From Methanosarcina barkeri 3 (lineage in GTDB: Archaea > Halobacteriota > Methanosarcinia > Methanosarcinales > Methanosarcinaceae): DNA of 64,000 nt. The stretch is from the NCBI RefSeq assembly GCF_000970305.1, contig NZ_CP009517.1, forward strand, positions 3,968,001-4,032,000. Reading direction: 5' to 3'. This document shows positions 6,819 to 44,525 of this stretch, one piece after another; positions within the stretch are counted from its first letter, which is position 1; each line of letters begins with the position of its first letter. The translations under genes and the position numbers were made by a program. Below the pieces are notes generated by a model. It was not told where the DNA came from. It ran no database searches and worked only from the letters and a program-made list of their open reading frames with translations.

Positions 6819-6952
6819 ATCTTTTATCTTTCTGGAGGATCATATAAATCAATGACGGATTTACCTATCAAAGCAAAAAATAATCGGAGACAATGGAACA
6901 TAAGCTTAAAATTTCAAGCAAGTGAAGTTTCAAACAAGTAATGCTAAAACAA

Positions 6953-7050
6953 TTAGTATTCAAATGAGTAATAATTCAAATGAGTAATAATTCAAATGAG
7001 TAATAATTCAATGAGTAATAATTCAAATGAGTAATAACTCAACAAGTAAC
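6953..7050. repeat. 16-bp tandem repeat
   Basis: About six copies of AATTCAAATGAGTAAT, the outer copies diverged. It lies in the gap upstream of the DUF167 gene. Confidence 0.8.
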
Positions 7051-7114
7051 AATTCAAACTAGATAGATATTGTTCAAGGAACTTCCGGAAAAAAAGTTTT
7101 TAAAAGAATGGGAA

Positions 7115-7281
7115 AATAGTGTTGTAGCCCTGGCGCACTAACTCCGAAAGCTCATCCTCTGGTTTTCCGCAGTCACTTTCAGTTACCCTCGTGCAGGGCA
7201 GTATCACACTATTAATGTACCGCATTGGGGTTGTCTGTACACTCACAGTCAGGATTTTCCATTACCTCATGCAAGGACCTA
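7115..7281 (-). ncRNA. Candidate H/ACA-type small RNA (two hairpins)
   Basis: On the minus strand, the helix pairing 7269-7276 with 7220-7225 is followed at once by TACA (7219-7216). The helix pairing 7199-7194 with 7132-7127 (GCCCTG/CAGGGC) is also followed at once by TACA (7126-7123). Two hairpins each ending in an ACA box is the archaeal H/ACA guide layout. Both apical parts carry GA-rich segments that could form kink-turns. A TATA box (7301-7309) lies about 25 nt upstream of the predicted 5' end. A run of seven T residues on the transcribed strand lies downstream (about 7088-7094). Target sites were not worked out. It could be another structured RNA. Confidence 0.6.
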
Positions 7282-33574: not shown

Positions 33575-33997
33575 TCAGATTTGTTCGTTTGATGCTACAG
33601 TAGTAAGCTTTGAGAATTTTACCCCTTTGAGGGCCATTATAGCTTCGGCAAGCTCCTTAATTTCTTCACCTTCCCCATCGAGAACAATTACTTCAAAGCA
33701 ATTGTCATGATCAAGGTGTATATGCACTGATGATTTTATCAGGTGAGAGTAGTGGTGCTGAATATCTGCAAGGGCATTCGAGAGACCTCTTTTTGTATGG
33801 TCATAAATAACCGAAACGGTCCCGACGCGGTAACCCTTAATGTCACCCATCCATTCGTAATAAGAAATGTAACTTCTAATGGCATCTCTTATGCCTTCGG
33901 AACGAGAAGAATAACCTCTTTTTTCGATAATCTCATCAAATTTACCCAAAAGGGTGTCGGGAAGGGAAACTCCTATCCTCATAAGTTCTGTTTCCAT
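33575..33997 (-). CDS. nikR: Nickel-responsive regulator NikR
   Basis: A 140-residue ribbon-helix-helix regulator with an ACT-like nickel-binding domain. The N-terminal RHH is at about 5-48 ([18 protein letters not shown], then [16 protein letters not shown]). The nickel ligands keep the spacing of E. coli NikR: H81, H92, H94 and C100 correspond to H76, H87, H89 and C95. It represses nickel uptake when nickel is plentiful. In methanogens nickel is needed for F430, hydrogenases and CODH. A metal-chelate-type ABC transporter cluster lies 2.5 kb upstream on the same strand. Confidence 0.96.
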
Positions 33998-34032
33998 AAT
34001 ATCACCGGATAATCTTGGATTTGTTTACGAGT

Positions 34033-34068
34033 TAATACTTTAGTATATTACACGTAGCACTATATATG
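34033..34068 (-). promoter_or_regulatory. nikR promoter with overlapping palindrome
   Basis: On the minus strand, a TATA box (ATATATAG, about 34059-34068) is followed about 20 bases later by an inverted repeat (34033-34050, TAATACT and AGTATATTA arms). This covers the expected start site. The arrangement suits repression, possibly autoregulation by NikR. Confidence 0.45.
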
Positions 34069-34678
34069 TTTTTTTCACATAGCCACTAATATAAAAGAGT
34101 TTCTAACAAATATTCGTTCTTTACTAATATTAATCTTTGGGAATAGCTTACGTCTACTAACCAGAAAATATATAGGCTTTTTTATTTTGGAAAAAGTAAT
34201 TATTCAGTCTGAAGAAAATAATATTAATAACTATTAGTAGTATTTGGAAGTCAAATTTGTTTCGAATTATTTTTCAGTTATTTTTCAGTTATTTTTCAGT
34301 TATTTTTCAGTTATAACTGTTGATTGTACTTCATCTGAGTCCATTAATACGTGGCCAATTCTATTTGTCAAGGAGAAAACGACATCGTTAAACCAATTTT
34401 TGATTAACTTGACAACATATAAAAGAAAATATAAAAATAAAATAAAAGTAGAAGAAGTTTTAAACAAATTATTTTTTAATAAAATTTAAGAAAATTATAT
34501 GTAAGATCGATTCCAGGCACGAGTACATTTTCCAGATAAGCCCACTTTCTCAATACTAACGTTTCAACATTTTCTGAATTATCTCAGCGTTTTTGAGTTT
34601 TCTCAGAGCTCTTTAAGTGACTTTACACTTTTAAATCGTTTTGGCATTTTTCTGTGTCACGGTCTTTTCTTATCATCT
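34069..34678. other. Intergenic, no gene
   Basis: A+T-rich DNA between nikR and the ligase gene. About four and a half copies of an 11-bp unit (TTTTTCAGTTA) lie at 34262-34315. An 81-codon open frame at 34244-34489 begins by running through that repeat and shows no protein-like features, so I do not call it. Confidence 0.5.
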
Positions 34679-36037
34679 CTATCGCCTGTCCACAAGCCTT
34701 TTAGGCCTGCCTTTTATTCTGTTAAGTTCGAGACCCATAGGGCCCGTGAAATTGAATATTATTTTGAAAGTACCTTCGGCATAAGCCCTGGAAAGCGGAG
34801 GCTTATATTTAAGAAAAGTGCGAAGAAAGTTCTCCTTTATACGATCCCGGTCGCACACCTCAGGACTTTCACATTCCATACTTACCCTGAGTACGGTTTC
34901 TCCTTCATCCTCTGCGCCATAAAGAAAAGCCTCATATTCTCCAGTTAGATAGTCCATGTTTTCGCGCTGAAAAACGCCTCTTTCCACATCTACACGGTTA
35001 AAGGGAGCTCCTTCTACCCACACAGTTTCAGCCTCCCGCTGAGGAGTCATAATCTTCATATGCGTCCTTCCGCAGGGACACTGTTTGCGCGTGAGCACCA
35101 CAGTTGTGTCTTCGGTATCATAGTTTAAAAGAAGGGTGCCCGCTTTCGCCCCAACAGGCAGCAGTGTACTCAGGATAACCCTTCCGCATTCTCCGTCAGG
35201 TACATAATTCTCCACATGGGGATCGTAAATATCAACGTGGACAAGGTCTTCAGGCACATGCAGCCCTGATACCTCATCACACTCACCACACATCGTACCT
35301 TCCGTGCTTCCATAAGTATTATAAACCGGACAGCCCCAGATTTCCGAAAGGTAGTTCCTTGACTCTTCAGCAAAGGATTCTCCTCCCACGACAAGTTTAT
35401 CTACACCTGACTCCCGAGGGTCAATACCTTCTGCCTGTAACCTTCTGGCGAGGTTAAGTAGTTTGAATACACTGCCTACTATACCTGTAGGCCTGTAAGC
35501 TTCGATAACACGCAGGGGAAACGTGCATTTACCCTCAGGAATAATACTCATACCAAGCTGCCTGGCCGCAAGGGTCATGGTGTTTGCCCCTACATTCATT
35601 CCATAAGAAGCACAGACAACAACCCTGTCTCCAGGACCGAAGCCCTGTGACCTGAAAATACGTGCGTACTTTTCCGAATACCGTTCCCAGTCTTCCCATG
35701 TAAGGAAAAAACTCTTTGGGTTTCCGCTAGTTCCGCTAGTCTCATGAACTGTGAAAACGTCCTCCCATCCCACACTCCTGAACATGAATTCGTTCATTTC
35801 CGGAGGTTGGTTTTCACGGATAGTGTTTCCCGAGATTATGGGAAGGTCCAGAAGGTCCTCATGGGTTTTAATCTCAGCCGGATCCACGCCCTGCTTTTCA
35901 AACCATTTTCTGTAAAAAGGAGAATGTTCTGCCGCATATTTTACCGTGTACCTTACCCGCTCCTCTATGAGAGCATCCAGTTCTTCCCTGTCCATGGTTT
36001 CGATTTCAGGATTGAAATAAGGTCTTGAGTTGTCCAT
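34679..36037 (-). CDS. Phenylacetate-CoA ligase / F390 synthetase-like enzyme
   Basis: A 452-residue ANL-superfamily adenylating enzyme of the PaaK group. In methanogens, members include coenzyme F390 synthetase, which adenylates F420 under oxygen stress. The AMP-binding loop is HETSGTSGNPKSFFLTW (about 101-117). YNTYGSTEGTMCGEC (about 238-252), LNYDTEDT (about 320) and CPCGRTHMKI mark the adenylate and hinge regions. The Cys-rich turns are typical of this group. I start at the ATG at 36037, which has GGGGGTGC upstream, instead of the in-frame ATG at 36052. The substrate is not certain. Confidence 0.82.
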   Translation of the reverse strand: MDNSRPYFNPEIETMDREELDALIEERVRYTVKYAAEHSPFYRKWFEKQGVDPAEIKTHEDLLDLPIISGNTIRENQPPEMNEFMFRSVGWEDVFTVHETSGTSGNPKSFFLTWEDWERYSEKYARIFRSQGFGPGDRVVVCASYGMNVGANTMTLAARQLGMSIIPEGKCTFPLRVIEAYRPTGIVGSVFKLLNLARRLQAEGIDPRESGVDKLVVGGESFAEESRNYLSEIWGCPVYNTYGSTEGTMCGECDEVSGLHVPEDLVHVDIYDPHVENYVPDGECGRVILSTLLPVGAKAGTLLLNYDTEDTTVVLTRKQCPCGRTHMKIMTPQREAETVWVEGAPFNRVDVERGVFQRENMDYLTGEYEAFLYGAEDEGETVLRVSMECESPEVCDRDRIKENFLRTFLKYKPPLSRAYAEGTFKIIFNFTGPMGLELNRIKGRPKRLVDRR

Positions 36038-36142
36038 AGAAAGCACCCCCAAATAGAATAAGATCAGAAAACCTGTTATTTATTAGCTTCAAAGATGAAA
36101 TCTTTTCTGCGATCTTTAAATTATTAACCTTTTTGAATATTA

Positions 36143-36338
36143 AAAATAATAAAAGGAGTAGAAATAATAAGAGGAGTAGAAATAATAAGAGGAGTAGAAA
36201 TAATAAGAGGAGTAGAAATAATAAGAGGAGTAGAAATAATAAGAGGAGTAGAAATAATAAGAGGAGTAGAAATAATAAGAGGAGTAGAAATAACAAGAGG
36301 AGTAGAAATAACAAGAGGAGTAGAAATAACAAGATGGG
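36143..36338. repeat. 18-bp tandem repeat, about eleven copies
   Basis: About eleven copies of AATAATAAGAGGAGTAGA, the last ones with AACAAG. The unit contains AGGAG-like purine runs. It lies between the ABC ATPase stop and the ligase gene. Confidence 0.93.
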
Positions 36339-36510
36339 TAGATAAGATCCTGCCCTCTTTCCTTCTATCTTTTTTCTCTTGAGGCTGCATTTTTATGGAT
36401 CTGTTTTATTTCACCTTTTTTAGATTTTTCTATTTTTATGTGTGCTTTTATTTTTAGATTTATATTTAATGCATGTTTATATTAAAATTGATATTTATAT
36501 TATATTTTGT

Positions 36511-37290
36511 TTATCTTCTTAAGGGTAAACATACTTTTCTTTTCATATCTTCAATTTCCCTGATAGCTACATTTACACCATAGACTGAAGACATCATCTT
36601 ACTGGTTACAACGGTTTCGACTTTTCCTGCTGCAACCAGTCTACCTCCGGACAATGCTGCAGCTCTGTCACCTAACAAAAAAGCATGATCCGGCATATGT
36701 GTATTCATAACAATGGACATTCCAAGTGAAGCCAGTTTCTGGACAGTTTCCAGCACAAGGATCTGGTTGCCAAAATCAAGGTGAGAAGTTGGCTCGTCCA
36801 GCAAAAGCAGAGCAGGCTTCTGGACAAGAGCCCTGGCAATAAGCACCATTTGACTCTGTCCTCCACTGAGCTTAGCAACCGGTCTTTCTGCAAGACCGGA
36901 AATTCCCACCATTGCTAGTGATTCTTTTGCAAGTTTAATATCCTCTGTACCAGGGGATGCAAACATGGAAAGATGAGGAGCACGGCCCATAACTACAAAA
37001 TCCAGCACAGTAAACGGAAAAACCACTTCATTTTGCTGAGGTACATAACCTATATTCCTGGCAATTCCTCTTACCCCAAGAGAAACTGTATCCTCTCCCT
37101 GAATATAGATAGATCCGTTATCGGGTTTGAGAATTCCCGCAATACATTTGATAAGTGTAGATTTTCCTGCCCCGTTTGGGCCCAAAATGCACATGATTTC
37201 GCCTTTTTTCAGCGAAAAAGATACATTTTCAAATACTGGCCTGTTTCCATAAGAGAAAGCAAGGGACTTTACTTCCAGCATCAGTTCCAT
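36511..37290 (-). CDS. ABC transporter ATPase, metal-chelate/B12 type
   Basis: A 259-residue cytoplasmic ATPase of the FecE/BtuD group that powers import. Walker A GPNGAGKST (about 38-46), Q-loop VPQQN (about 86-90), signature KLSGGQSQ (about 140-147), Walker B LLLLDEPTSHLD (about 159-170) and the switch histidine in MNTHMPD (about 194-200). The start overlaps the end of the permease gene by ten bases, indicating translational coupling. It is the last gene of the five-gene cluster. About 35 residues follow the core domain, perhaps interacting with the upstream products. Confidence 0.95.
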   Translation of the reverse strand: MELMLEVKSLAFSYGNRPVFENVSFSLKKGEIMCILGPNGAGKSTLIKCIAGILKPDNGSIYIQGEDTVSLGVRGIARNIGYVPQQNEVVFPFTVLDFVVMGRAPHLSMFASPGTEDIKLAKESLAMVGISGLAERPVAKLSGGQSQMVLIARALVQKPALLLLDEPTSHLDFGNQILVLETVQKLASLGMSIVMNTHMPDHAFLLGDRAAALSGGRLVAAGKVETVVTSKMMSSVYGVNVAIREIEDMKRKVCLPLRR

Positions 37291-38300
37291 CCCATACGCC
37301 CCTTCTTGATAAGGTATGCAAACACCGGAGCTCCTACCAGCGAAGTGAGAATTCCCAGGGGAATTTCTGTAGCTACAATGGTCCTTGAAAGATCATCCAC
37401 AACCAGCATAAACGATGCTCCGATAACCATGCTCATGGGTAAGAGGCGGCTATAATTGGGACCAACAATCATTCTTGAGATATGAGGTACAACCAGTCCT
37501 ACCCAACCAATGACACCACTGATACTGACTGCTGCTGAAGTTACAAGGGTCGCACAAACAATGATGATCAGCCGCATTTTTTCCACGTCCATTCCAAGAG
37601 CTTTAGCTTCCTCGTCGCCAAGGGACAAAATGTTGATACGCCACCTGAAAAGAAACAATACTAGAGACCCGACAATTATAGGCGATAATATATAGAGCAG
37701 ATCAACGTACCTGACAGTAGCAAGGCTTCCCATAAGCCAGAATACTATTGCAGGAAGTTGATCATAAGGATCTGCTACATACTTTGCCAGTGACGTAAGA
37801 GCCGTGAAAATAGAGTTAACAATAATTCCCGAAAGCACGAATACAAGAGTTCCAGTACCTTTGCTGACTTTACCCATACTTATAGCAATAAACATCGCAA
37901 GGAGTCCGAAAGCAAAAGCCATCAACTGTATTATAAGATAATTGTTCCAGAGCAATATTGCAAGGCATGCTCCGAAACCAGCCCCTGAACCTACTCCAAG
38001 GATATAAGGGGACACAAGAGGATTACGAAAGATTCCCTGGAAAGAGGCTCCAGATATGGAAAGAGCTGCACCTACCAGTAAAGCTGCAAGTATCCTTGGT
38101 AACCTTACATTAAATAGTACTGTGTGTTGAGTGGAAACCGAAGCAGGAGTGCCGAAAAAAAAGGATGAAAAAGTGCTAATGCTCTCATCCACAACTGCCG
38201 ACAGTGGAGTTTGGTATCTTCCGACAAAAAGGGAGATTATGAGTAACACGAAAGGTAACAGATACACCAGGGTAGTGCGATTAAACTTGTAATCAGGCAT
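37281..38300 (-). CDS. ABC transporter permease, BtuC/FecCD type
   Basis: A 339-residue membrane permease with about ten helices. Family landmarks: NVRLPRILAALLVGAALSISGASFQGIFRNPLVSPYILGVGSGAGFGA (about 62-110), and the coupling segment with LGMDVEKMRL before SISGVIGWVGLVVPHISRMIVGP (about 258-285). Known relatives import iron-siderophores, heme, vitamin B12 or other metal chelates. The first eight bases of the gene overlap the 3' end of the radical SAM gene, and its end overlaps the ATPase start. Confidence 0.95.
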   Translation of the reverse strand: MPDYKFNRTTLVYLLPFVLLIISLFVGRYQTPLSAVVDESISTFSSFFFGTPASVSTQHTVLFNVRLPRILAALLVGAALSISGASFQGIFRNPLVSPYILGVGSGAGFGACLAILLWNNYLIIQLMAFAFGLLAMFIAISMGKVSKGTGTLVFVLSGIIVNSIFTALTSLAKYVADPYDQLPAIVFWLMGSLATVRYVDLLYILSPIIVGSLVLFLFRWRINILSLGDEEAKALGMDVEKMRLIIIVCATLVTSAAVSISGVIGWVGLVVPHISRMIVGPNYSRLLPMSMVIGASFMLVVDDLSRTIVATEIPLGILTSLVGAPVFAYLIKKGRMGWN

Positions 38301-40065
38301 GAGTATCCCTCATCACATGCCTGGGCCATATGCCGGAAGAGGGTCTGTGAAATGACCTGTTAGGCTTTGCTTCCTCAAAAGGTATACCGTAAAACCGTAG
38401 ATAAAACTCATTTGCTTCTTTTTTCATGTCAATTGTTGAGTTTTCTGGGTTCAGTTTGTCTGCTATGTACAGGAGTCCCAGTATCCAGCGAGGGTTCCCG
38501 AAATCCCAGGACGGCGGAACTTCATAGACACGATGCTTTTTTACCGCATCTGCAGATATGCCATACTGCTGGCACAGGCTATAAAACTCATCGAGAGGGC
38601 GAGAAAGAAAACCTGAGATAAAAATTGTCATGGGATTCTGCTCACTTATAAAAGAGGGAGAAACATTTACACCCGGTTTGCCTTCTTTTTGAAGCTGTTT
38701 GTTGATGCTAACTCCCCCGGAAAATGTTACAAGATTGTTTTCCATTCTTCCGGCGTTTAGAGCAAAAAGAGGAGAGCCCATACAATAATACACCTTATGA
38801 CAGCTATTTTCCGCTGCAAGAGATTTGACAAGTTCCAGACGATTAAGAGTAAAGGAAATAAGTTCTTCACCTTTTTCCGGCACATTTGCCTTCTCAGCAA
38901 TAAGCCTGATAAATTCAAGATAGGAGTACGGCTGCTGTACCATATGATGTATTCGATTCAGGGTTTCGGGATTGGAGACTTTTCCCCATATTTCAATTAA
39001 TCTGTTGTCGTCAAGTATTCCCAGGCATGTAAGTACTGCATGGACCATACTGAAAGCTCGACTTATCCTGTAACCGCCCATGAAACCTTCCTCATTGAAA
39101 CTTTCATTCGCAGTTATCCCTTTAACCGGGGTATCCTTACCGCAATTACAGGTGTAACTTGTCCAGGGTTTTAGAAGCCTGGAACCCATGGGCCCGTAAA
39201 ATTCCCTTTCTGCAAGAAGGCTGCCGCATTCAGGACAGTACGTGTTTGACAATTCCGTACCTGGAGAATTGAAGAGATAAACATAGTCTATATGTTTACG
39301 CAGAGCAGCACACAGGTTCTCAGCCTCTCCGATAGAGGGTTCAAGCTCAATTGGGGCATCCCCGAAAGGAATGAACCTCATGACCTGAACCGGAATGGTA
39401 GGAGAGATATTAGACAACGTTTTTACAACCTTTATCACATCTTCTTCATTTCCCCGTGAGTAAACGATCGAAGTTTCAACATGTACACCCATGTCGAAAA
39501 GCCTGGATATGTTGCGGAAAACAGGAGCTGAGGACGGGACTCCGCAGCTTATATAGCTCTTATCAGAATAACCCTTAATTCCAATGTTCATGAAATCTAC
39601 AAGCTTTCCAAGTTCTTCCAGTGTCTCGTCTGTGAAATAGCAGTTTGTGGAACAGCCTGCAAGTAAACCTTTTTCTTTTGCCTGCACAGCAAGGTCCCTG
39701 AAAAGATAATAGTTTGCAGCAGGCTCATTGAGTGTGGAAACTACACCCAGGCACTCCTGCTGCACTGCTTTTTCCACTACCTGAGACGGGGTAAGTGCAG
39801 GAAGGTCAAGCGATTTCCCTGAAGCTAACAGGCGAGCCACGCAGCCTGAACACTGGAAATTACATCCAGTACTGAAAACCTGAAGGAACTTACCTGAGGG
39901 ATAGTAATGAAGTAAAGGAATGGTTTCTATAGAAACAGGATATGCTCCAAGATATCCGATATCAGGGTCCTGGATGATATTACCGCCAGCACATATGTAG
40001 TTCCCACACCTTCCCCTGCTGTATTCATCGATTTTACACCTGAATTCACACACATTGCATTTCAT
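38293..40065 (-). CDS. Radical SAM protein fused to a substrate-binding-protein lobe
   Basis: A 590-residue fusion. The N-terminus has a Cys cluster (C3, C6, C10, C20, C25) as in PflA-like/AmmeMemo radical SAM proteins. The radical SAM motif C68-x3-C72-x2-C75 (STGCNFQCSGC) follows, then a barrel to about 260 and a small zinc ribbon (CPEC..CNC, about 270-305). The last 180 residues align by eye with the C-terminal lobe of the cluster's own binding protein: KVYYCMGSP vs RVYYAEGP, TFSGGVSIN vs DICGGINV, VKKHRVYEVPP vs VKNKRVYLAPQ, FYLRFYG vs FYSEFFH. No signal peptide is present, so this lobe is cytoplasmic. I infer that it captures the imported ligand for radical chemistry. Confidence 0.85.
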   Translation of the reverse strand: MKCNVCEFRCKIDEYSRGRCGNYICAGGNIIQDPDIGYLGAYPVSIETIPLLHYYPSGKFLQVFSTGCNFQCSGCVARLLASGKSLDLPALTPSQVVEKAVQQECLGVVSTLNEPAANYYLFRDLAVQAKEKGLLAGCSTNCYFTDETLEELGKLVDFMNIGIKGYSDKSYISCGVPSSAPVFRNISRLFDMGVHVETSIVYSRGNEEDVIKVVKTLSNISPTIPVQVMRFIPFGDAPIELEPSIGEAENLCAALRKHIDYVYLFNSPGTELSNTYCPECGSLLAEREFYGPMGSRLLKPWTSYTCNCGKDTPVKGITANESFNEEGFMGGYRISRAFSMVHAVLTCLGILDDNRLIEIWGKVSNPETLNRIHHMVQQPYSYLEFIRLIAEKANVPEKGEELISFTLNRLELVKSLAAENSCHKVYYCMGSPLFALNAGRMENNLVTFSGGVSINKQLQKEGKPGVNVSPSFISEQNPMTIFISGFLSRPLDEFYSLCQQYGISADAVKKHRVYEVPPSWDFGNPRWILGLLYIADKLNPENSTIDMKKEANEFYLRFYGIPFEEAKPNRSFHRPSSGIWPRHVMRDTHA

Positions 40066-40068
40066 TTT

Positions 40069-40692
40069 TCAACCTTCCTTGCTTAGTACCATCCAGAATC
40101 CCGATTCATCCTGAACTACATGATAGGGGATTTCGGTCTGTTTTCCAGCCTCCTCTATAGCCTGAAGGTTTTTAGGACTGAGGCGTTCTTTTGAACTTGC
40201 ATGCCAGTCAGGATCTATTTCAACCATTTTTTCAGAGATCTGTGCTCTCAACTCTTTTGTGCCAAAGCCACCTCCTACCCATGCCTGCCCACCCGGAGCA
40301 AGAACGCGAGCAATTTCCTTAAAGGCCACAGGCAGATCATTCCAAAAAAATACAGAACCCCGGCTTACTATAAGATCTGCACAATTGTTCCTTAAAGGGA
40401 GCAGATGTACATCGGACTGCACAGGAGCAACTTTACCTGAAAGGTAGTGACGGAAGGCTTTGTTTCTTGAAAGCCTGCACATTTCAGTTGAAATATCGAT
40501 ACCATATACCTGCATATCCGTTATTTCCGCAACAGCAACTCCCAGGGATGCTATACCGCATCCCAGGTCAAGGCATATACCTTTCTCTATCCCGCTTTGC
40601 TTGACGATATGAGCTGCTATTACAGGGTAGATGGGGGCAAAGATGTTCTCTGCAATATAGGGAAAGCCCGGAGATTTATCCTTCTCGCTCAC
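40069..40692 (-). CDS. SAM-dependent methyltransferase, class I
   Basis: A 207-residue Rossmann-fold methyltransferase (Methyltransf_11 type). The SAM motif I is CLDLGCGIASLGVAVAE (about 40-56), motif II acidic residue in VYGIDIS (about 63-69), then LPLRNNCADLIVSRGSVFFWNDLPVAFKEIARVLAPGG (about 97-134). It starts inside the binding-protein gene (four-base ATGA-type overlap) and ends three bases before the radical SAM gene. It must therefore act with this transport cluster, probably on the imported compound. Confidence 0.9.
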   Translation of the reverse strand: MSEKDKSPGFPYIAENIFAPIYPVIAAHIVKQSGIEKGICLDLGCGIASLGVAVAEITDMQVYGIDISTEMCRLSRNKAFRHYLSGKVAPVQSDVHLLPLRNNCADLIVSRGSVFFWNDLPVAFKEIARVLAPGGQAWVGGGFGTKELRAQISEKMVEIDPDWHASSKERLSPKNLQAIEEAGKQTEIPYHVVQDESGFWMVLSKEG

Positions 40693-41783
40693 GTCTTAGC
40701 CTCTGCTGAAGGGTTAAGTAGAGTGTCCAGTTCTTTATCCGTGAGATCATAGTGGAAGAACTCCGAGTAGAAATCACGAGTCAGCTTGGGCAGGTCCATA
40801 TTTGCAAACCGGTCAGGATACAGCATTTTTGCAGTCCAGGCAGTCCCTATGATAAGGTGAGGGCCCTGTGGCCTGTCAATCCAGCAGAAAGGATTCTGAG
40901 GAGCAAGGTATACTCTTTTGTTTTTCACAGCATCTAGGCTTGACCAGAGAGAATCAGAGTAAACCGTCGAATAGAACTGTGGATTTGAAGTGATAATTAC
41001 CTGAGGATCCCAGTTTATAACCTGCTCGATTGAGACCTGCGTCATACCATTCCCTGGAGTAAGCTTGCAGTCTGCAACATTAATACCACCGCATATATCA
41101 ATAACTTGAGAATGTTGAGAACCCGAAGGGTCAGTCATCAGCCCCTTTGGACCTTCGGCATAATAAACGCGTACTTTCTGGTCCTCGGGAATGTCTTTTA
41201 CAGTGTTATTGATCTCGTTAAGGATTGAACTGCGGAAATCAATCAGTTTTTGTGCCTGGTCTTCACAATTAAGAAGTTTACCCACATATTGTATAGTAGG
41301 ATCAGATTTGTTAACGAAGATAATGGAATCATTAACAGCTACTACAGGAATGTTTCCAAAGTTTTCCTGTCTGCGCTCTATAGCTTCATGGATTTCCCCA
41401 TCAGTAGTATATCCTTCAATTACGATATCAGGATGCATGTTAATTATAGTTTCATAGTTTCCGGTCTGTGTTCCGAACCAGCCCCCTATTACAGGCAGAT
41501 TTGAGTAGTTTTCAGCCATAAAAGGTTGAGTAAAGTTATTTTTAAAATTCCAGCCTTCAAGTTTGTCCGGAGCAAGCATATACACGAGAATAGTTGATGG
41601 CGGAGAAGTGGCTACAACTGAAGAGACTTCCGTCGGCACAGTTAACTGCCTGCCCAACATATCGGTTATCTGTACTGTGCTTGAGTTCTGGACAGCCTGA
41701 TGCGTATTTTCTGCACACCCACAGGATGCTACAGCCAGAACCAGAATAGAGAGTAGTAGTATTGTACCTATTTTTCCACGCAT
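40689..41783 (-). CDS. Substrate-binding lipoprotein (iron-siderophore/B12 family)
   Basis: A 364-residue extracytoplasmic binding protein. The signal peptide ends in a lipobox (LAVASC, Cys21), so it is probably membrane-anchored. The mature protein is a COG0614-type two-lobe fold: VQITDMLGRQLTVP (about 36-49), PDIVIEGY (about 124-131), a helical linker, then RVYYAEGPKGLMTDP and VKNKRVYLAPQNPFCWIDRPQGPHLI. The WIDRP stretch is at the expected ligand-binding site. First gene of the operon. The palindromic operator lies 34-53 bp upstream. Confidence 0.93.
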   Translation of the reverse strand: MRGKIGTILLLSILVLAVASCGCAENTHQAVQNSSTVQITDMLGRQLTVPTEVSSVVATSPPSTILVYMLAPDKLEGWNFKNNFTQPFMAENYSNLPVIGGWFGTQTGNYETIINMHPDIVIEGYTTDGEIHEAIERRQENFGNIPVVAVNDSIIFVNKSDPTIQYVGKLLNCEDQAQKLIDFRSSILNEINNTVKDIPEDQKVRVYYAEGPKGLMTDPSGSQHSQVIDICGGINVADCKLTPGNGMTQVSIEQVINWDPQVIITSNPQFYSTVYSDSLWSSLDAVKNKRVYLAPQNPFCWIDRPQGPHLIIGTAWTAKMLYPDRFANMDLPKLTRDFYSEFFHYDLTDKELDTLLNPSAEAKT

Positions 41784-41816: not shown

Positions 41817-41852
41817 TTATGTTTGCATGAACATAATGATATAAATATATAT
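41817..41852 (-). promoter_or_regulatory. Promoter and palindromic operator of the rSAM-ABC operon
   Basis: The minus strand has a TATA box (TATATATTTATAT, about 41839-41851), immediately followed by a 20-bp near-perfect palindrome (41817-41836; arms TTATGTT and AACATAA around a GCATG core). The predicted start site falls at the far edge of the palindrome, so a bound repressor would block initiation. A metal-dependent repressor of the DtxR, Fur or NikR type is a reasonable guess only. Confidence 0.55.
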
Positions 41853-42520: not shown

Positions 42521-42554
42521 AGTTATATATAATAAATCGCATATGAGTAATTTG

Positions 42555-42977
42555 ATGGTAAATAGAGTTAAGCGCAGGGTATCGTGCCTTCCAAAAGCTG
42601 CATATTATAAACCCAGGAAGGTTTCTCTCTGCGATCTCGAAATTATTAACTTATCCATAGGAGAACTTGAAGCCATCCGCCTTTGCGATCTCGTTCATAT
42701 TGGCCAAAACGAGGCCGCAGATATGATGGGCATCTCCAGAAAAACTTTCTGGAATGATCTGCAAAAGGCTCGACAGAAAGTGACTGAGGCCCTTGTCAAT
42801 GGCAAAGCAATAGAGATTTCCGGAGAGTATATAAATAATGGAGAGTGCAAAGTTGAATTTCTCTGTAGCGGGTGTGAGTATAGATGGGAATTAAAGTGTG
42901 ATACTGAGCGCCCAGCTATCTGTCCGATGTGCGGTTCCGAAATCGTATACCCAATCGGCGGCAACGAAAGAGAATAA
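42555..42977 (+). CDS. DUF134/UPF0251 DNA-binding protein with zinc ribbon
   Basis: A 140-residue UPF0251 protein. The N-terminal sigma-70 region-4-like helix-turn-helix (about 35-85) shows LEAIRLCDLVHIGQNEAADMMGISRKTFWNDLQKAR. A C-terminal zinc ribbon carries CSGCEYRWELKCDTERPAICPMCGSE (about 108-133). It often neighbours NifX/NifB-like cofactor-binding proteins, as here. An ATG at 42543 is in frame, but a TATA box at 42522-42531 puts the transcript start close to 42552-42556, so the mRNA is probably leaderless and starts at the ATG at 42555. Confidence 0.88.
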   Translation: MVNRVKRRVSCLPKAAYYKPRKVSLCDLEIINLSIGELEAIRLCDLVHIGQNEAADMMGISRKTFWNDLQKARQKVTEALVNGKAIEISGEYINNGECKVEFLCSGCEYRWELKCDTERPAICPMCGSEIVYPIGGNERE

Positions 42978-43055
42978 AAATCATTGAGAACGAATACTGC
43001 TACCCCAGAAGCAAGGTAAAGGCAGCAGCGGTAAATGTTAAAGGAAGTGTGAAAA

Positions 43056-43430
43056 GTGACAAAAATTGCTATACCATCAATGAATGAAAGTGGACTGGAA
43101 TCTGACGTTTGTTTTCATTATGGCTCATGCGAATATTTTACCATCGTGGATGTAAGCGATAAAAATATTGAGAGTGTTAAAACAATAAGTAACCTGTCTC
43201 CTGAGATCGAGCACAATTGTGCTGCTCCATCAAAAATATTAGAATCACATAATGTCAATGCTGTGCTTGTTGCGGGTATCGGTGGGAGACCACTGATGTC
43301 ACTGGCAGAAAAAAATATCAAAGTATTTGCAGGAATAACGGGTAAGGTTTCCAACGCAGTTGATGACTATAATAATGGGTTACTGCAAGAACTATCTATG
43401 AATGGTACCTGTAATTGCTCTCATCACTAA
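43056..43430 (+). CDS. NifX/NifB-like cofactor-binding domain protein
   Basis: A 124-residue stand-alone dinitrogenase iron-molybdenum cofactor biosynthesis domain (COG1433). It begins with the ribonuclease-H-like TKIAIPSMNESGLESDVCFHYGSCEYFTIVDV and has VLVAGIGGRPLMSLAEKNIKVFAGITGKVSNAVDDY (about 71-106). The C-terminus NGTCNCSHH supplies Cys and His residues that could bind a metal cluster. A GTG start follows AAGGAAGTGTGAAAA. Most probably it binds or carries an Fe-S or Fe-Mo type cluster. It is between DUF134 and a membrane DUF4405 gene. Confidence 0.88.
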   Translation: MTKIAIPSMNESGLESDVCFHYGSCEYFTIVDVSDKNIESVKTISNLSPEIEHNCAAPSKILESHNVNAVLVAGIGGRPLMSLAEKNIKVFAGITGKVSNAVDDYNNGLLQELSMNGTCNCSHH

Positions 43431-43798
43431 ACGAATTAATTAGCAATGGTTGGATCGGAACATCTGAAAGAGGTGAAACTGTAAGCCGACTAAAAACTAA
43501 TTACTTAATAGACCTTATTCTGACAACTCTATTTTTTGCTGTTGCAGGTACAGGTTTAGTTATGTACTTTTTAATACCTTCAGGAATTCCGAGAGGACGT
43601 TATATAGTATATATGGGATTAACGAAAGCTAACTGGATTTGGATACACAGCAGAGCAGGAATCTTGATAGTTTTTCTTATAGTTGTCCATCTTATCCTGC
43701 ATAGTCAATGGATAATACGTACCACAAAGAGCTTTTGCAAAAAAGAAAACAAAAACACTATTTGTGAGAGAGATACAGTGACTGATAAAGTCCGATAA
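43415..43798 (+). CDS. DUF4405-like membrane protein (start uncertain)
   Basis: A small membrane protein with three hydrophobic helices. Its WIHSRAGILIVFLIVVHLILHSQWI segment resembles heme-binding b-type cytochrome DUF4405 proteins; His residues in helices could ligate heme. The longest frame starts at TTG 43415, overlapping the preceding gene by 16 bases, with a poor ribosome-binding site. Homology suggests a start near SRLKTNYLIDL. There an excellent GAGGTG (43470-43475) is followed five bases later by GTA (43481), not a normal start codon. I give the longer version. Confidence 0.7.
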   Translation: MLSSLNELISNGWIGTSERGETVSRLKTNYLIDLILTTLFFAVAGTGLVMYFLIPSGIPRGRYIVYMGLTKANWIWIHSRAGILIVFLIVVHLILHSQWIIRTTKSFCKKENKNTICERDTVTDKVR

Positions 43799-43838
43799 GA
43801 AAATTATTCAAAATAATCTGAAAATCGGAGTTGAAAAT

Positions 43839-44525
43839 ATGGATGCAAAAGAGATAAATAAATATGGGCAAGAACTTGTAGACTGCCTGAAACTGAATAC
43901 CTCTCCTGTTGCAGTAAAATTAATTCCTAAAGGAGAAGAAGTTCCTGAGGGAATGAAAAAAGTAGATGAGGCTATGAGACACTGCCAGCTGGTAGACAGA
44001 GTGAGACGAACAGGTGAGGAGTTTTATACACTTGGTGAAGACCAGATGTGCAAAGGTGGGGCCGGCGCAATGGGCCTTGGCGAAATGCCTCCAAAAGTTG
44101 CAAGTGGAGAATTTTATTTTAATAAACTCAAACAATTCAGCACCCAGGGCGCTGCCAGGCGCACCCTTGAAGGAGTTACCAAGCTTCCCCCAAATTCAAC
44201 AGAAGCTATCCTGTACTCTCCCCTGGAAAAAGCCACATTTACTCCGGATGTTGTTGTAGTTATCTGTACCCCCAAACAGGTTATGTTACTTACACAGGCG
44301 ATGATGTACAAAACGGGCGGCAGAATCGAAGCGAGTTTTGCAGGAAAGCAGAGCTTATGCTCGGATGCGGTTGTGAAGACATATAAAGAAGGCAAAGTGG
44401 GAGTCACAGTCGGTTGCAGCGGCAGCAGGACATACACCAAAATCGCAGATGAAGAAATGATTATGGGAATTCCTATAGAACATCTGGCTGATGTAGCTAC
44501 TGGCCTTAAGGCAATTTCGAAGTAA
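43839..44525 (+). CDS. DUF169-family protein
   Basis: A 228-residue cytoplasmic protein of the DUF169 family, common in anaerobes and unassigned in function. Typical segments: LKLNTSPVAVKLIPKGEEVPEG (about 17-38), MRHCQLVDRVRRTGEEFYT, CKGGAGAMGLGEMPP (about 68-82), VVVICTPKQVMLLTQA (about 134-149) and GCSGSRTYTKIADEEMIMGIP (about 191-211). Four conserved-type cysteines suggest a cofactor or redox role. It follows the DUF4405 gene by 40 bp. Confidence 0.88.
   Translation: MDAKEINKYGQELVDCLKLNTSPVAVKLIPKGEEVPEGMKKVDEAMRHCQLVDRVRRTGEEFYTLGEDQMCKGGAGAMGLGEMPPKVASGEFYFNKLKQFSTQGAARRTLEGVTKLPPNSTEAILYSPLEKATFTPDVVVVICTPKQVMLLTQAMMYKTGGRIEASFAGKQSLCSDAVVKTYKEGKVGVTVGCSGSRTYTKIADEEMIMGIPIEHLADVATGLKAISK

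Follow-up and report, generated by a model that had tools for sequence, protein, structure and literature searches.

In a window of 64,000 nucleotides from the genome of Methanosarcina barkeri 3 (contig NZ_CP009517.1, positions 3,968,001 to 4,032,000), five minus-strand genes encode an ATP-binding cassette (ABC) importer together with two S-adenosylmethionine (SAM)-dependent enzymes, one of which carries half of a substrate-binding protein (SBP). In the order of transcription, these are a class III substrate-binding lipoprotein with a lipobox-like VASC sequence (window positions 40689-41783; Peripla_BP_2, 83.4 bits, cut-off 27.5), a class I SAM-dependent methyltransferase (MTase) with a GTG start (40069-40692; Methyltransf_11, 72 bits, cut-off 21.2, E = 8.5e-20), a radical SAM/SBP fusion protein of 590 amino acids (38293-40065; Radical_SAM PF04055, 48.2 bits, cut-off 29.5), a BtuC/FecCD permease (37281-38300; FecCD, 305 bits, cut-off 26.5, E = 6.5e-91) and an ABC ATPase (36511-37290; ABC_tran, 124 bits, cut-off 25, E = 7.2e-36). 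The open reading frames (ORFs) overlap by 4, 8 and 10 bases and leave one gap of 3, exactly as given in a preliminary description of this locus, and all five families it had assigned score above their Pfam cut-offs. The FecCD permease, the ABC ATPase and the class III SBP together constitute a type II ABC importer of the BtuCDF-like kind. The closest PDB relatives of the operon's SBP include 4pag (9e-57) and HI_1472 (5e-26).

It is practically certain that the radical SAM protein is fused to the C-terminal lobe (C-lobe) of an SBP. The preliminary description had noticed this resemblance, and BLASTP, profile searches, profile-profile comparison and a structure model all bear it out. BLASTP aligns residues 386-559 of the fusion with residues 164-343 of the operon's own SBP at 25% identity (E = 4e-9). 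A single-sequence phmmer search of PDB sequences with the fusion retrieves the class III SBP 4hn9 (E = 9e-7), and a profile of the fusion family matches 4hn9 (9e-16), 4pag (2e-13), IsdE (4e-11), HI_1472 (8.5e-8) and also BtuF. The single-sequence Pfam score for an SBP is 17.5, below the cut-off of 27.5; comparison of the fusion with the SBP family by hhalign gives a probability of 98.8% (E = 5.6e-17) over residues 374-579. In an AlphaFold2 model of residues 311-590 of moderate quality (predicted local distance difference test [pLDDT] 60.6, predicted template modelling score [pTM] 0.67), the C-terminal region folds as an SBP lobe and not as something unrelated, and the top-ranking Foldseek hits in the PDB belong without exception to the class III SBPs (E from 6e-6 to 2e-5, probability 1.00). 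Since the alignment supplied to AlphaFold2 included one SBP row, this fold match is support rather than independent proof. A model of the full-length fusion, built with seven close relatives, was set aside (pLDDT 39).

While the lobe itself stands, its extent, previously taken as the last 180 residues, needs refinement: the fused part comprises the connecting helix and the complete C-lobe, about residues 374-565. On the minus strand, the fusion gene can be divided into four segments. The radical SAM part (residues 1-310; 39136-40065) is defined by PF04055, its Cys motifs and similarity to TIGR04337. It is followed by a linker that replaces the SBP N-terminal lobe (N-lobe; residues 311-384; 38914-39135), which is shorter than the ∼115-residue N-lobe and, judging from the SBP alignment and from the secondary structure of the model, whose confidence is moderate to low, probably helical. 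Next come the connecting helix and the C-lobe (residues 385-565; 38371-38913), supported by hhalign, Foldseek and the ratio of nonsynonymous to synonymous substitutions (dN/dS), and a conserved tail with the motif NRSFHRPSSG (residues 566-590; 38296-38370) is apparent from alignments. Of the features of class III (cluster A) SBPs, the homologous connecting helix and C-lobe are present, while two lobes and an export signal are missing; the sequence has no hydrophobic N-terminus, in agreement with the earlier statement that a signal peptide is absent. The fusion carries half an SBP and is not itself an SBP.

The N-terminal part belongs to the radical SAM superfamily, as it has the CX3CX2C motif (C68/C72/C75) within the PF04055 domain. 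It also contains four N-terminal cysteines (C3/C6/C10/C20) and the pairs C277/C280 and C306/C308, and all eleven are invariant across 26 diverse fusion members. The closest NCBIfam model is TIGR04337 (AmmeMemoRadiSam), which aligns residues 1-299 with positions 12-318 of 349 at 87.8 bits, under its cut-off of 220; a limited literature search returned no functional study of an enzyme of this type. Nearly all relatives searched contain a separate match, too, of about 30-35% identity to the N-terminal 300 residues only. The resemblance to TIGR04337 raises the question whether the enzyme is an ordinary AmmeMemoRadiSam-type protein whose lobe, left over from a gene fusion, has no function. We consider this effectively refuted: few parts of the protein are as well conserved as the lobe, which in most diverged pairs surpasses the radical SAM part (58% vs 52% in locus L068), its dN/dS of about 0.10-0.15 is similar to that of the catalytic part, it has been kept in two classes of methanogens, and nearly all relatives have the separate N-terminal match in addition. 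Because of this conservation and low dN/dS, we regard the C-lobe as functional and subject to purifying selection.

Fusion proteins are widespread in these two classes of methanogens. A match was found in 35 of the 238 genomes of the whole class to which M. barkeri belongs, distributed over 8 genera, and a strong match in 63 of 232 genomes of a second class, about three being partial only. A scan of named public genomes yielded Methanosarcina only, the nearest being M. spelaei (96%), and no relatives were found in the viral contigs scanned. We distinguish clade A, the window-type fusion, from clade B, a paralogue of about 70% identity, and a third clade C with 33-37% identity. Among 60 relatives, clade A occurs in 18 genomes, including that of M. 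barkeri 3, besides the first-listed copies, and clade B in six.

The order SBP-MTase-fusion-permease-ATPase is kept in loci L042, L062 and L064-L074 of the window's family, of which L042 and L062 run to the contig edge and L064-L066 contain a second SBP, and in L063 from outside this family. It is found in nearly all loci inspected that contain the window-type operon (operon A), down to fusion identities of 47-50%. In the second class, the MTase-fusion pair forms the core, and the transporter genes around it vary. The MTase adjoins the fusion in the inspected operon A loci and in most second-class loci. Hence, the combination of domains recurs beyond the window, and its relatives do adjoin FecCD-type transporters, as the preliminary description had led one to expect. 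Several further observations were made at fusion loci. Within 13 kb, locus L128 (1375-14370) harbors three paralogues of the fusion that represent two clades; two of these paralogues are separated by modB and a gene for a ModC-like ATPase. A methyltransferase of ∼300 amino acids recurs next to fusion loci in L082, L092, L098, L137 and L142 (reference copy L098, 9352-10269). In-frame TAG, TAA or TGA triplets in several orthologues were considered as recoded codons and rejected, as they appear to be normal terminal stops (coordinates were checked for L080 only).

Upstream of the operon, 33 bp before the ATG of the SBP gene, lies a perfect palindrome on the minus strand, TTATGTTCATGCAAACATAA (41817-41836), with the pattern TTATGTT-N6-AACATAA. 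It is immediately preceded by a TATA-like element (TTTATA, 41840-41845, minus strand) within a conserved block of the upstream alignment, which presumably serves as promoter. The position of the palindrome between this element and the start codon would suit a repressor site. The palindrome is conserved in all eight aligned Methanosarcina operons and, with 0-2 mismatches, is found before operon A in the majority of the other genera; in L067 it lies before a gene upstream of the SBP, and before L063 it is absent.

Only five exact sites exist in the 4.56-Mb genome of M. barkeri 3. If a second genome (G014) is included, there are eleven, ten of which can be explained, while one (position 3687877 of the M. 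barkeri 3 genome, G000) has no evident target. Three sites precede fmdE operons and another three window-type SBP genes, namely that of the window operon, a 77%-identical copy before an fmd operon and the SBP beside clade B. Another lies in the interval that separates clade B from vnfH, two are situated between anf and vnf, and the tenth is found in front of a FecCD transporter that adjoins modABC. Sites with one mismatch are found before modA in both genomes. At this threshold, the M. barkeri 3 genome contains 13 palindrome sites and G014 contains 18, against 5 for the reversed control pattern in each. In locus L169 (4192-10463), the 77%-identical SBP copy directly precedes an fmd-type operon, and each has its own exact palindrome. 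An operator-like site is thus common to the operon and to modA, fmd, anf and vnf genes, and from its distribution the palindrome looks like the operator of a wider molybdenum/tungsten (Mo/W) regulon that includes these genes and the SBPs. We found no description of the palindrome in the literature searched.

A link to molybdenum is also visible in the gene neighborhoods of the second class. We noticed modABC, moeA or fmd genes near the fusion first in L076, L077, L090 and L097, and then near about 15 of a further set of 49 loci. In L076, ModABC is encoded directly upstream of the MTase-fusion pair. A modB gene lies within 10 kb of at least 11 of 75 second-class fusion loci, compared to 1.54 expected from the genome background. 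In selected genera, modB is near at least 11 of 30 fusion loci vs none of 112 fusion-free FecCD loci among the matches listed, in genomes that are related rather than independent and in genera that were picked after the link had been seen. As the weakest modB matches fall outside this list, the observed counts are lower bounds. The modB gene can be upstream, downstream, convergent or divergent relative to the fusion, depending on the genus, which suggests that the association arose in more than one event.

Two further loci contain genes of interest in this context. Divergent to the operon in the window lies a cluster (42543-44525) of genes for a regulator, which we take to be DUF134-like, a NifX/NifB-like protein of the iron-molybdenum cofactor (FeMo-co) family (PF02579), a small membrane protein and a DUF169 protein; it adjoins the operon also in L009, L010 and L014. 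In L091, a gene for a Tfx-family regulator (6828-7235; TIGR00721, 121 bits, cut-off 60) is divergent to the MTase-fusion operon. Tfx is linked to the control of fmd in Methanothermobacter.

Clade B connects the fusion family to vanadium (V). In the M. barkeri 3 genome and G014, the clade B gene is divergent to a nifH-type gene (vnfH), and in the former the genes following vnfH score above the cut-offs for VNFD (1007 bits, cut-off 823), vnfG (176 bits, cut-off 142) and vnfK (902 bits, cut-off 874). Among the 60 relatives, all six genomes with clade B, and no others, encode a VnfG-type delta subunit, which lies in its vicinity; other AnfG_VnfG matches lie elsewhere in the genomes and resemble the Fe-only type. 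Since all six genomes belong to one genus, the association possibly arose only once. Clade B of G014 is accompanied by genes for a window-type SBP and a FecCD transporter and by AnfO-like genes. Here, a short AnfO gene (L038, 8096-8485; 129 amino acids, N-terminus missing) adjoins the clade B fusion, and a full AnfO gene is found 5 kb away. The notion of clade B as a marker of Fe-only nitrogenase was rejected, as G010 and G019, both without clade B, have AnfG-type matches as well.

Based on these observations, it is very probable that the operon is associated with Mo, W or V. The V-nitrogenase-linked paralogue, the modB, fmd and moeA neighbors and the shared operator point to these metals in place of the heme or corrinoid proposed in the preliminary description. 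Salvage of a tetrapyrrole, a corrinoid or nickel would fit the BtuC-like permease, the presence of BtuF and IsdE among the PDB matches of the lobe, and a gene for a NikR-like regulator located 2.5 kb past the operon (33575-33997; NF002169, 241 bits, cut-off 111), which shares the region 33575-36052 with a gene for a coenzyme F390 synthetase downstream of the operon (822 bits, cut-off 459). But the permease and the ATPase stay below the cut-offs of the equivalog models for BtuC (NF007081, 225.6 of 461 bits) and the heme ATPase (NF010068, 200.1 of 261 bits), and no genes for cobalamin, heme or F430 were recognized in the inspected fusion neighborhoods, in which not every neighbor was identified. 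The nikR-like and F390-synthetase genes are neighbors in the closest relatives only (L009, L010 and L014, not L011-L013 or L015), and we rejected both links for this lack of conservation. With the operator tying the operon to Mo genes, we consider salvage of such compounds very improbable. Between the ATPase and F390-synthetase genes, eleven near-perfect (97%) copies of an 18-bp tandem repeat (36144-36342) give rise to a spurious leucine-rich ORF.

How could such an operon function? The idea of the preliminary description, that a cytoplasmic half-SBP would offer the imported ligand to SAM-dependent chemistry, remains the most natural one. Metal release, as proposed there, is one of two possible outcomes, the other being synthesis of a chelator. 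We give about even chances to the view that the five genes form an operon for the acquisition of Mo, W and perhaps V, in which the cytoplasmic fusion would hold a metal complex with its half-SBP lobe and modify this complex. According to this model, a metal-responsive repressor at the palindrome would allow expression when Mo or W is short, and the SBP and the transporter would import a complexed or thiolated metal. The lobe of the fusion would then bind the imported complex inside the cell, where the fusion, together with the MTase, would alter the ligand, and the metal would be released or passed to client pathways such as formylmethanofuran dehydrogenase and nitrogenase. The vnf-linked paralogue would play the same role for vanadium.

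Two considerations guide this proposal. Formylmethanofuran dehydrogenase contains a pterin cofactor and V-nitrogenase the iron-vanadium cofactor (FeV-co); the linked clients thus share the type of metal and not the cofactor, so the step in question probably concerns the metal itself or its complex. Moreover, the lobe is homologous to the SBP of the importer, and the simplest assumption is that it holds a ligand of the same kind for SAM-dependent chemistry. In its most specific form, which we put forward tentatively and at somewhat less than even chances, the fusion would be a new metal-salvage enzyme, whose half-SBP captures the imported Mo, W or V complex and which, together with the MTase, chemically frees the metal or passes it on. 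In methanogens, this metal-level step would come before the pathways to the pterin cofactor as well as to the nitrogenase cofactor.

The same genes could instead serve the production of a metallophore: the fusion and the MTase would make a methylated chelator for Mo, W or V, the lobe would hold the chelator or its precursor, and the SBP-FecCD system would reimport the loaded chelator. This idea fits an operon in which two SAM-dependent enzymes accompany an importer of the siderophore type. In the second class, genes for additional methyltransferases of small molecules (PF00891 and others) are repeatedly found next to SBPs and fusions, and a study on DUF364 has made a similar proposal for chelators of Mo, W and V (PMC2954201). 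On the other hand, no recurrent exporter or scaffold-building enzyme was recognized, and the MTase-fusion pair also adjoins plain ModABC, an importer of free oxyanions, in L076 and L119, where the stretch contains no FecCD gene. The occurrence of the pair both with BtuCD-like importers and with plain ModABC favors a role after import; we regard metallophore synthesis as the less likely but still serious alternative.

Alternatively, the lobe could sense the imported ligand in the cytoplasm and switch the activity of the radical SAM domain or of another protein, so that the fusion would be a regulator responding to metal status. This would be in line with a lobe that is conserved although the N-lobe was lost, and with clade B and the many clade C copies that lack the other genes of the operon. 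We nevertheless judge a sensor to be quite improbable, as all cluster-type cysteines are invariant, the MTase partner is conserved in operon A, and a Pfam scan revealed no DNA-binding or signalling domain in the fusion.

Several points weigh against metal salvage by the fusion and its Mo/W/V ligand, in addition to the way in which the genera of the modB comparison were chosen. Clade B and most of clade C have no adjacent methyltransferase. Ligand binding by half an SBP may be weak, and the invariant residues of the lobe (e.g., R440, E442 and N443) do not correspond one-to-one to those of the SBP, so that the ligand of the lobe may differ. In one large genus, modB is near none of 24 fusion loci among the matches listed. 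In Methanosarcina, clade A does not adjoin any recognized gene for Mo transport or cofactor synthesis, save the NifX-like gene in the closest relatives; its link to Mo consists of the operator and the paralogues.

In kind, the operon belongs to the metal importers with accessory enzymes, and in agreement with the preliminary description, we did not find its domain fusion described in the literature searched, the coverage of which was incomplete. MolBC-A of Haemophilus influenzae is a BtuCD-like importer able to carry molybdate, and its SBP MolA (HI_1472) is reported to bind molybdate and tungstate (PMC4031551). Like the system described here, MolBC-A (HI1470-HI1472) is a type II importer whose SBP is of class III, and HI_1472 ranks among the nearest solved relatives of the fused lobe and, by sequence, of the SBP encoded in the operon. 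A difference is that half an SBP is here built into a cytoplasmic enzyme. To our knowledge, MolBC-A has neither a methyltransferase nor a radical SAM partner. BtuF, IsdE and CeuE share the connecting helix and C-lobe with the fusion, which has only this one lobe, lacks a signal peptide and is joined to a radical SAM domain.

Among soluble enzymes encoded together with transporters for Mo, W, V and Fe, the nearest precedent is DUF364 (PF04016), a family of putative enzymes of heavy-metal chelation that is associated with ABC transporters for tungstate, molybdate, vanadium and iron and for which action on a chelator has been proposed (PMC2954201). It combines enolase-like and Rossmann-like folds, however, and no DUF364 match was obtained in the fusion at E up to 1. 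AmmeMemoRadiSam proteins have the same N-terminal region by profile, but the fusion stays below their cut-off, has the SBP lobe added, and no gene for Memo or AMMECR1 was recognized nearby. NifB, the maturase of FeMo-co, is likewise a radical SAM protein, and clade B is tied to the metal supply of a nitrogenase. Yet the very weak profile match (0.008) is no better than between radical SAM proteins in general, there is no match to a NifX domain, and clade A is also present in genomes seemingly without nitrogenase.

Little is understood of how strict anaerobes acquire Mo, W and V from sulfide-rich surroundings, which keep these metals in bound form. The operon offers a defined candidate for this process, as its type II importer is accompanied by dedicated SAM enzymes, one of them bearing half an SBP, and as it is tied by its putative operator to the genes of nitrogenase and formylmethanofuran dehydrogenase. 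At the same time, the AmmeMemoRadiSam-like type of enzyme represented by the N-terminal part gains a metabolic context. If the fused lobe indeed presents the ligand to radical chemistry, this would be an unusual coupling of import to processing.

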